64,000 nt of DNA from Microbacterium sp. (lineage in GTDB: Bacteria; Actinomycetota; Actinomycetes; Actinomycetales; Microbacteriaceae). The stretch's first letter is position 1; each line of letters starts with the position of its first letter. The stretch is from contig NZ_JAPSIY010000001.1 in NCBI RefSeq assembly GCF_031178445.1, positions 186,001-250,000 of the forward strand, read 5' to 3'. Both the position numbers and the translations under genes were made by a program. Shown here piece after piece: positions 51,436-53,380 of this stretch. Under the pieces are notes generated by a model. The model made no database searches, had not been told where the DNA came from, and worked only from the letters and a program-made list of their open reading frames with translations.

Positions 51436-51723
51436 TTACTTGACAGCGGCCTTCAGCTTGGAGCCGGCGGTCACCTTGACGCGCTTGCCGGCCGGGATCT
51501 TGATCTCGGCGCCGGTCTGCGGGTTGCGGCCGGTGCGGGCGGCGGTGTCGACCTGCTCGAACGAGATCCAGCCCGGGATCGAGACCTTGCTGCCCTTGGC
51601 GACGGCGTCGGAGACGGTGCCGAAGAGCGAGTCGAGAACGCGCGAGACCGTGGCCTGGCTCTCGCCGGTGGCGGAAGCGATGCTCGCGACGAGCTCGGTC
51701 TTGGTGATGGACTTGTCAGCCAT
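51436..51723 (-). CDS. hup: Nucleoid protein HU
   Basis: The 95-residue histone-like DNA-binding protein has the conserved dimer core (ITKTELVASIASATGESQATVSRVLDSLF) and the DNA-gripping arm (RTGRNPQTGAEIKIPAGKRVKVTAGSKLK). It lacks the Lys/Ala-rich C-terminal tail of mycobacterial HupB, so it is the short bacterial type. GGAGGATGAC before the ATG is a good ribosome binding site. Confidence 0.95.
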   Translation of the reverse strand: MADKSITKTELVASIASATGESQATVSRVLDSLFGTVSDAVAKGSKVSIPGWISFEQVDTAARTGRNPQTGAEIKIPAGKRVKVTAGSKLKAAVK

Positions 51724-51921
51724 GTCATCCTCCAGCGACGATGGTCCGTCGCATCATGTTGGTTTCGGAGGCGAACCTCCGTCGGTCGATCGACCGCCTC
51801 GACAGTATCAACCGAGACCATGAAATCCGCGTCATTTCGCGGGTTTCGGGCACATTTCTCGGCGTGTCACGCCACATGTGTCACATCAGTCACAGAAATC
51901 GGGCCGCAAACCCTCACGGTT

Positions 51922-51997
51922 CGCAGGAGATCGCACGGAATCAAGGAGCGGATGCGTGTGCTCGGGCCTGCAGATCGTGCGATCTCCTGCAGGTCGT
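51922..51997. repeat. Palindromic repeat, copy A
   Basis: GCAGGAGATCGCACG (51923-51937) is mirrored perfectly by CGTGCGATCTCCTGC (51976-51990), a 15-bp stem with a 38-nt spacer containing AAGGAGCGGATGC. A related copy (B) lies on the other side of the DUF559-type gene. No coding sequence is needed to explain it. The surrounding gap 51724-52001 also holds the HU promoter. Confidence 0.75.
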
Positions 51998-52001
51998 GCG
52001 G

Positions 52002-52832
52002 TCAGCGAGCGGCGCGATGCAGCCCCTGCGCCACCGCCTCCATGATGATGGCCTGCACCTGTTCCCATCGGTCCATGATCTGCTCGTAGCTGAAGCGCAG
52101 CACGTGGTATCCGCGCAACGTCAGCTCGGCGTCATGCCGGATGTCGCTGGTGCGCTGCGCCCCCGTGTGCGTGGCGCCGTCGATCTGCACCACGAGACGC
52201 TCACCGATCAGCAGGTCGACGCGATGACCGAGCACCCACGCCTGCGGCAGCATCGGCACCCCCATCCATCGGAGCCGGAAGATGATGATCGTCTCGAGAC
52301 CCGAGTCTGCGAAGGGGCGCGCCTGCTCAAGCACGGCGACCGCCGCCGGCGGAAGAGGCAGCCGCGCGAGCGCCTGACGGTCGACGAGCCCTTTGTTGAG
52401 CGCCGACTCCCAGATCACCAGCGCCTGCTCGGCAGGCTGGCACTGCGCGATGATCGACAGCGCGTTGACCAGGTGGTCTTCGATGTCATCGCTACTGCGG
52501 TCGATCACCGGCTTGGACCAGTGGACCACGACGTGCGCGGGAACCTCGATCCGCGACCCGTTGGGCGCAGCGGCCACATGGAACGCCGTACGCTCGGGAA
52601 CCCACAGCCCTCGGCGTTCAGCCACGGTGACGCAGCTCAGCACCACCCCACGACGCACGGCGCCGAGCAGAAGCTGATCGGCATCCGGCACCGCCACCCA
52701 GCCACTGCGCACGGTGACGATCTGACCGGATTCCTTCGCGCGTCGCACAGCGTACGTGCTCACACCCGCGCGCACGAGAGTGCGGGTGCGGGCGATCCCG
52801 CCACGCTTTCGGAGTTCGGTCACGGCATCCAT
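52002..52832 (-). CDS. DUF559/Vsr-type endonuclease-fold protein with AbiEi-like N-terminus
   Basis: The 276-residue protein has an N-terminal winged-helix part (GGIARTRTLVRAGVSTYAVRRAKESGQIVTVRSGWVAV), as in AbiEi-type antitoxins. A C-terminal restriction-endonuclease-like fold follows (HRVDLLIGERLVVQIDGATHTG, RHDAELTLRGYHVLRFSYEQIM). The D and VQIDG positions match the PD-(D/E)XK-type core of DUF559. Such genes are common orphans in Microbacteriaceae and their role is unproven. The start at 52832 keeps it clear of palindromic repeat B; longer frames would read through the repeat. Confidence 0.75.
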   Translation of the reverse strand: MDAVTELRKRGGIARTRTLVRAGVSTYAVRRAKESGQIVTVRSGWVAVPDADQLLLGAVRRGVVLSCVTVAERRGLWVPERTAFHVAAAPNGSRIEVPAHVVVHWSKPVIDRSSDDIEDHLVNALSIIAQCQPAEQALVIWESALNKGLVDRQALARLPLPPAAVAVLEQARPFADSGLETIIIFRLRWMGVPMLPQAWVLGHRVDLLIGERLVVQIDGATHTGAQRTSDIRHDAELTLRGYHVLRFSYEQIMDRWEQVQAIIMEAVAQGLHRAAR

Positions 52833-52937
52833 CAGGCCACTCTGCGCCGGCCGCGCGGCGGCGCGGGATCCGTCACCCGGTCCTTGGGGACAACTCAGCG
52901 CCACAGGCCGATGTGCAGAGCAGCGCGTCGCGCGATC

Positions 52938-53007
52938 CGCAGGAGATCGCACGGAGTGAAGGAGCGGATGCCGGGTATCCGGCCTGCAGATCATGCGAAC
53001 TCCGGCA
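52938..53007. repeat. Palindromic repeat, copy B (degenerate)
   Basis: It begins with the same 17 bases as copy A's left arm region (GCAGGAGATCGCACGGA, 52939-52955), keeps AAGGAGCGGATGC in the spacer, and ends with a diverged right arm (GATCaTGCGAaCTCCgGCAG type). It is in the same orientation as copy A, about 1 kb away, with the DUF559-type gene between them. Confidence 0.7.
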
Positions 53008-53030
53008 GAGTATGCGACCCGAAGACGCAG

Positions 53031-53062
53031 AAGGGGCGGGGATCCGAAGATCCCCGCCCCTT
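53031..53062 (-). terminator. Terminator of the rpmB-rpmG-rpsN operon
   Basis: A 14-bp perfect stem (53031-53044 with 53049-53062) closed by a 4-nt loop (TTCG on the transcribed strand), 13 bp after the rpsN stop, followed by few U. One of the strongest hairpins in the window. Confidence 0.9.
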
Positions 53063-53074
53063 GAAAGCGACTGC

Positions 53075-53380
53075 TTACCAGCTTGACTTGGTCACGCCGG
53101 GCAGCTCGCCGCGGTGCGCCATGTCACGGAAGCGGACACGCGAGATGCCGAACTTCGTGAGCACACCACGGGGGCGGCCGTCGATGACGTCGCGCGAGCG
53201 CACGCGCACGGGCGATGCGTTGCGCGGCAGCTTCTGCAGGCCGATGCGAGCGGCTTCGCGCTGCTCGTCGGTCGACTCAGGGCTCACAAGAGCCTTCTTC
53301 AGCTCGGCGCGACGCTCGGCGTAGCGCTCGACGATGACCTTGCGCTGCTCATTGCGAGCGATCTTGCTCTTCTTAGCCAT
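53075..53380 (-). CDS. rpsN: 30S ribosomal protein S14, zinc-independent long form
   Basis: The 101-residue S14 ([24 protein letters not shown]...) ends [24 protein letters not shown]. The C-X2-C pairs of the short zinc form are absent. It binds 16S rRNA in the 30S head. Last gene of a three-gene operon before a strong terminator; 3 bp separate it from rpmG. Confidence 0.97.

Follow-up and report, generated by a model that had tools for sequence, protein, structure and literature searches.

The locus analysed here, which lies in a 64-kb window (the whole stretch of Microbacterium DNA that was examined), is best read as a gene-palindrome system that resembles REP/RAYT, is possibly homing-like and employs an unrelated enzyme. 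A gene for a predicted nuclease is bracketed by two copies of one palindromic unit. As read from the sequences of the gene and its relatives, the bracketing units match each other, the unit changes with the protein, a half-site layout is common to units that differ in their letters, and the active-site residues are conserved; in some genomes there are dispersed copies of the unit, which are missing from most of the matching sites examined in relatives. We think it somewhat probable that gene and unit pair together make up a single "nuclease plus palindrome" element, either selfish or domesticated, which would be the analogue of a RAYT gene with its REPs.

The predicted nuclease gene and its flanking units

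The gene occupies positions 52002 to 52832 on the minus strand and is predicted, from Pfam matches and a modelled structure, to encode a 276-residue protein with an AbiEi-like winged helix-turn-helix (wHTH) part and an EDxHD-type (DUF559, Vsr-like) nuclease domain. The ATG at 52832 is the likely start, since the longer reading frame available on the same strand (52002-52994) would overlap the upstream palindromic unit. Unit A (51917-51992, plus strand) lies 9 bp downstream of the stop codon. Its arms form a perfect 15-bp stem (51923-51937 and 51976-51990; GCAGGAGATCGCACG / CGTGCGATCTCCTGC) that encloses a 38-nt loop. Unit B (52933-53008, plus strand) lies 100 bp upstream of the likely ATG, in the orientation of unit A, and folds as an imperfect hairpin. 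The two are direct repeats of 76 nt each, 83% identical and 1016 bp apart, which bears out the original prediction of related palindromic units flanking the gene in one orientation, one of them with a perfect 15-bp stem. When up to three mismatches were allowed, the first 18 bases of the left arm had three matches in the window, a number reached by none of 100 shuffles. Relatives carry units at the place corresponding to unit A.

The genes adjoining the nuclease gene were identified by Pfam as those for HU and the S14/L28 ribosomal proteins: the HU gene (51436-51723, minus strand; Bac_DNA_binding) lies on one side and rpsN (53075-53380, minus strand; Ribosomal_S14) on the other. A separate hairpin with a 4-nt loop follows rpsN at 53031-53062, outside the palindromic unit, and probably marks where the ribosomal-protein operon ends. 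Most of the relatives read, with or without the nuclease gene, have a similar hairpin after rpsN. A promoter/terminator scan of the window did not score this hairpin as a terminator; it found no terminator-like site at unit A or unit B and one weak site of this kind at 51901-51913. Comparison with Rfam returned a single sub-threshold snoRNA match in the region and, in four loci, none at the gathering score.

Two Pfam families matched the protein above their cut-offs, AbiEi_4 (2e-8) and DUF559 (3.9e-9), with MTES_1575 below threshold. NCBIfam PRK09767 (E 0.023, far below its cut-off) was set aside, as was PHROGs, where the only match had an E value of 0.2. A structure was predicted from an alignment of 11 sequences (mean pLDDT 89.5) and examined by structure comparison and Foldseek. 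Residues 177-271 resembled I-Bth0305I, an EDxHD homing endonuclease, in its catalytic domain (Z 13.1, rmsd 2.2 over 94 residues), residues 175-272 resembled Vsr (Z 10.4, rmsd 2.4 over 98 residues) and residues 1-172 were similar to 6y8q, an AbiEi antitoxin (Z 9.4, rmsd 4.8 over 171 residues). These matches, which hold within the list of folds compared and leave room for folds outside it, agree with Pfam and support the combination originally proposed, that of an AbiEi-like N-terminus with a predicted Vsr/DUF559 fold. Since residues 1-172 match AbiEi and residues 177-271 match EDxHD/Vsr, the protein is not of the HUH/Y1 type, and no HUH/Y1 tyrosine transposase domain was found in the gene by Pfam. 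Among the relatives, the putative active-site residues E180, D206, D218, R246 and Y249 are invariant (99/99), as is Q216 (98/98), and H222 (97/99), D230 and D234 (98/99) are nearly so. Some of these residues presumably correspond to the EDxHD motif. Both the catalytic fold and the conserved catalytic residues of EDxHD homing endonucleases are present.

Of the 295 genomes of the genus, 276 held relatives of the window protein (E ≤ 1e-20), with one to eight in each; the set is taken as Microbacterium because, among ten named loci with a relative of the gene, seven are from Microbacterium and three from Leucobacter. In a sample of the class, the AbiEi-EDxHD family was present in 28 of 246 genomes and 15 of 103 genera, spread over several families. 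The abundance of relatives within the genus would suit a restriction-like defence nuclease, for which the units would be self-marks or bait and not mobile elements, and PADLOC gave weak matches to AbiEi models (best E 1.4e-4) and to one homing-endonuclease model (E 0.03). We regard this explanation as improbable: the window site has no partner gene, its neighbours code for HU and ribosomal proteins, and the dispersed and solo units described below would have no obvious role.

Matching flanks and their correspondence with the protein

To each gene a bracketing score was assigned, the best local match between the 350 bp upstream and the 350 bp downstream, with no profile used. The genes were for the most part drawn from the top of the list of relatives ranked by similarity to the window protein (about 90 loci from about 150 matches listed) and not a random sample; three of 99 loci were dropped for short flanks, and two of the loci (L068 and L177) represent a single gene. 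Flanks matched at a score of at least 25 in 83 of the resulting 96 genes, from Microbacterium and Leucobacter, and at a score of at least 30 in 74; the other 13 had no matching flanks at 25 or above. When flanks were swapped between genes, scores of at least 25 and at least 30 were reached in 111 and 56 of 1152 pairs, and random slices of the window reached them in 60 and 10 of 600 cases. An earlier set of 39 genes had a mean flank score of 43.5, against a permuted mean of at most 25.8 in 2000 permutations. An enzyme gene bracketed by its own repeats, one of the features of REP/RAYT systems, is thus found in the great majority of the genes scored. The upstream matching unit ends at a median of 107.5 bp before the start codon and the downstream one lies at a median of 12 bp after the stop; among 74 pairs of flanking units, 48 were clearly direct, 15 clearly inverted and 11 ambiguous. 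Bracketing extends to relatives outside the genus (21 loci, two dropped for short flanks), 11 of 19 having flanks that match at 25 or above and nine at 30 or above, with ten below 30; the corresponding figures for swapped pairs were 24 and 6 of 342.

An eight-unit own-genome profile was also applied to 40 relative loci, three pairs of which are the same species from two collections (L064/L077, L065/L080 and L067/L087). By this profile, 21 loci had a unit on each side of the gene, four had one on a single side and 15 had none. Ten of these 15 had matching flanks of another sequence (score of at least 25) and five had none. The window genome contains two more DUF559 genes (L001, G000:C14:385024, and L003, G000:C29:54164); each has matching flanks, and their units are unrelated to the window units and to each other. 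A copy of the unit of one of these two genes was found elsewhere in the genome, at C10:157122 (81%, E 3e-12).

Comparison of 74 genes showed that repeat similarity follows protein identity (Mantel r 0.68, reached by none of 2000 permutations, whose maximum was 0.10). A repeat score of at least 30 was obtained for all 13 pairs of proteins at least 80% identical, for 79 of 97 pairs at 70-80% and for 78 of 142 at 65-70%. The proportion then fell to 25/137 at 60-65%, 10/643 at 55-60%, 3/1320 at 50-55% and 0/349 below 50%. Paralogs residing in the same genome had unrelated units in nine of nine pairs (scores 9-19.5). Common descent contributes to the correlation. As predictors of repeat similarity, the N-terminal regions carried higher standardised weights (0.33, 0.32 and 0.17) than the nuclease domain (0.04), a value partly lowered because the nuclease domain is the most conserved part of the protein. 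Single residues were weakly coupled to the repeat (best partial r 0.25); therefore, only the contrast between the N-terminal part and the nuclease domain was used. On these sequence comparisons, the N-terminal part is likely to recognise the unit.

Despite their differing letters, the units have a common layout, with direct half-sites 18-19 bp apart that stand in inverted orientation on either side of a variable loop. Among the 148 units that flank 74 genes (the two units of one gene not being independent), direct repeats of 6-mers were spaced by 18 bp in 46 and by 19 bp in 82; base shuffling would yield 6.6 and 5.4, respectively. A second repeat type consists of ACAGGTCAACCGnnnTTnnnCAGGA, a variable loop and then the reverse arm. 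Its units end in ACAGG...CCTGT, and the flanks outside them are mostly unrelated. There are also pairs of units 160-210 bp apart, and the flanks of these are likewise partly alike. At G282:C1:178317-178455, second-type half-sites form an iteron-like array in 19-bp steps.

Dispersed units and site occupancy

The window genome (G000; 3.37 Mb in 29 contigs) holds about eight recognisable units of the window type, namely the gene's own pair and six dispersed units (C14:356178, C10:467022, C10:463093, C4:167684, C4:73971 and C4:49650), and no DUF559 relative was found within 1.5 kb of any of the six. Across genomes, 23 of 29 loci with a window-type match had no DUF559 relative in the flanks examined. 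Close orthologs of the window gene, defined by E ≤ 1.1e-113, are present in 15 of the 295 genus genomes. A scan in which three candidates per genome were scored found a window-type match (E ≤ 1e-3) in 12 of these 15, and away from the gene in 11; in one genome (G033), the only match was a gene-flanking copy. Among the 280 genomes with no close ortholog, 13 had a match (Fisher p 9e-11 against 11/15). The remaining three close-ortholog genomes (G186, G172 and G095) had no match in the scan, yet their flanking units were found by an own-unit profile. Copies strewn about with no tie to DUF559 genes, the outcome that would have spoken against the original prediction, were not found. Together with the bracketing and with the way in which the repeat follows protein identity, these figures uphold the initial suggestion of a REP/RAYT-like pairing with a different type of enzyme. 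Fifteen dispersed copies were ranked by resemblance to flanking units and had a mean rank of 3.3 of 15 for those of their own genome (8 expected); most of these copies had been found because they resemble the window type, and both the copy and the flanking units are common to genomes that are related.

Seventeen of the 295 genomes contained second-type repeats; as many as 30 half-sites, counting those that flank the gene, were present in a single genome, and a reversed control pattern was present in none of the 295. A cognate gene at least 70% identical accompanies them in 11 of the 17, the copy in G100 having one internal stop, and was not found at this identity in the other six (G028, G198, G226, G175, G223 and G261). 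One of the six, G028, has 13 second-type half-sites and no cognate gene at E ≤ 1e-60; it holds an orphan repeat population, or else the gene was missed by the search. Among 21 chosen genomes besides the 17, the cognate gene was found in one (G193), with a variant repeat. G347, a genome from another family, yielded the flanking pair and no dispersed copies. These six second-type genomes, the 13 genomes with window-type copies but no close ortholog, the case of G347 and the genes whose flanks do not match all weigh against the reading favoured here. Dispersed extragenic copies, a further feature of REP/RAYT systems, were found with both types.

Sites that lack the gene together with its repeat, which the original prediction had proposed to look for, were found in two relatives: in G021 and G022 the joined outer flanks of the home site align without unit or gene, the position being fixed only to some 50 nt. 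Thirty further genomes, picked by handle, were surveyed at the home site. The gene with both units was present in one (G034), a clear solo unit in three (G014, and G029 and G013, where the hairpin unit stands alone) and a weaker hairpin in two (G049 and G012). HU lay within reach in ten, and in five of these (G021, G022, G031, G018 and G003) the gap was short and held no hairpin unit. The solo unit of G014 matches gene-bracketing units of other genomes (score 45), and the solo units or hairpins of G029, G013, G049 and G012 match none well (20-21.5). The window gene has an intact unit on either side, and home sites that are empty or hold a solo unit exist as well.

Occupancy varies at other sites too. 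A unit between a gene for a GNAT acetyltransferase (rimI-like) and tsaD has a counterpart in the corresponding position in G274 and in G075, and was not detected in ten other relatives examined, eight of which have a short gap of 37-64 nt there. The C10:463093 unit is absent after its left flank in all ten relatives that have this flank, its right flank being matched in none, and no unit was found at the sites matching C4:49650 (0/3 relatives), C4:167684 (0/1) and C4:73971 (0/1). In G033, what follows the left flank of C10:463093 is instead the sequence that borders the C10:467022 unit on its right. These two units are very similar, have the same orientation and bracket about 3.9 kb (L291, G000:C10:461800-468600), a stretch that holds a glycosyl hydrolase 20 gene. 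The outer flanks lie about 190 nt apart in G033 (L274), with no units; therefore a cassette may have been gained or lost here. The genomes compared are too diverged for a target-site duplication or the precise edge of an insertion to be fixed.

The main rival to the reading favoured here, which we consider unlikely, is that the units are operators. An AbiEi-like autoregulator would bind both ends of its gene, the dispersed units would constitute a small regulon and the nuclease domain would have some other target. The AbiEi-like N-terminal domain, the N-terminal bias in the tracking of repeat type, the position of the upstream unit and the two flanking copies of G347 all suit this explanation. 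Against it, the second unit stands just after the stop codon, where an operator is unneeded; the explanation is also at odds with the near-invariance of the active-site residues and with the absence of dispersed units from most of the matching sites examined in relatives. The location of the dispersed second-type loci, as judged by a crude composition test, argues in the same direction. None of 19 is spanned by a coding-like ORF; eight have coding-like ORFs converging on them from either side, away from promoters, one has a co-directional setting and the other ten could not be judged on both sides.

Extragenic sites between converging ORFs are expected for REPs and for terminators alike, and the same loci could be taken to indicate that the units are terminators or mRNA stabilisers, their bracketing of genes being a by-product of inheritance at one site. 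The caution that came with the original prediction, that the repeats might be ordinary terminators at convergent gene ends, stands in part: such a role is possible for dispersed copies (8/19) but does not explain the bracketing pairs. Paralogs are bracketed at many sites, with different letters at each, and swapped flanks rarely match. In the window, the scan scored neither unit as terminator-like and rpsN already has a hairpin of its own. We disfavour the explanation by extragenic hairpins and consider it very improbable.

Known systems and a proposed mechanism

REP/RAYT (TnpA-REP, REPtrons) is the closest known system in behaviour. There, as with REPINs and in the present case, palindromes bracket a cognate enzyme gene, dispersed extragenic copies occur and the repeat type is specific to the enzyme. 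REPINs have inverted arms with a variable spacer, and the window-type system is alike in this. Of the traits that define it, two are absent here: an HUH enzyme and a GTAG tag. RAYT is an HUH tyrosine transposase, whereas the enzyme described here combines an AbiEi-like wHTH part with an EDxHD-type nuclease, and the units measure about 67-76 bp, contain direct half-sites and lack a GTAG tag. This tetranucleotide marks the foot of REP palindromes according to PMC3733652 and PMC8266576; units A and B, read by eye, have it at neither end. REPs usually number more than 100 copies according to PMC2817692, as opposed to the 30 half-sites at most seen per genome here.

Other systems share single features. 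In IS elements with gene-less derivatives (MITEs), end-like repeats also bracket a gene and gene-less copies are dispersed; here, however, Pfam found no transposase domain, no target-site duplication was seen and the flanking pairs are mostly direct. The catalytic fold is that of Vsr and of EDxHD homing endonucleases. One of the latter, I-Bth0305I, dimerises on a target of nearly 60 bp according to PMC3943268; the unit is similarly long and may likewise be bound by a dimer. Apparent differences from homing endonuclease genes are that no intron was seen, that a target-like unit stands intact on each side of the gene and is not interrupted by it, and that the N-terminus of the product is AbiEi-like. 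AbiEi antitoxins (type IV toxin-antitoxin) share the N-terminal fold, but here it is fused to a nuclease domain and set among HU and ribosomal-protein genes, and Pfam analysis of the neighbours showed no nucleotidyltransferase toxin gene (AbiE) adjacent at the window locus. A literature search covering few subscription papers found no paper linking DUF559 or AbiEi-nuclease genes to palindromic repeats, nor any naming DUF559 together with AbiEi.

Binding, cutting and movement are steps that we infer. A protein dimer would bind one unit of about 67-76 bp. Its AbiEi-like domains would each read half-sites with a spacing of 18-19 bp, and cutting, in or near the loop, would fall to the EDxHD-type domain. 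That the protein cuts the unit is plausible by analogy, given its fold, its residues and the nearly 60-bp target of dimeric I-Bth0305I. If the break were repaired from another copy, units would spread and the gene's pair would stay alike. Such repair could also bring a unit-gene-unit cassette into a solo-unit site, in a homing-like manner, and recombination between the two flanking units, mostly direct, would remove the gene, with one solo unit left behind. Spreading driven by the nuclease is the most economical step of this scheme, and an unproven one.

We see even chances that the REP/RAYT principle was invented independently a second time. The AbiEi-EDxHD family, found in several families of the class, would then pair each of its enzymes with a co-evolving palindrome of about 67 bp, the dimeric recognition and cleavage site, and units and gene would spread by break-induced copying. 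If this is true, populations of palindromes served by an enzyme of their own have originated on more than one occasion, and from enzymes that are unrelated. From the 74 natural enzyme-site pairs, the rules of DNA recognition by a homing-endonuclease-type nuclease could be read. The proposal also offers a possible function for a large group of genes named only by their DUF559 or AbiEi-like domains.
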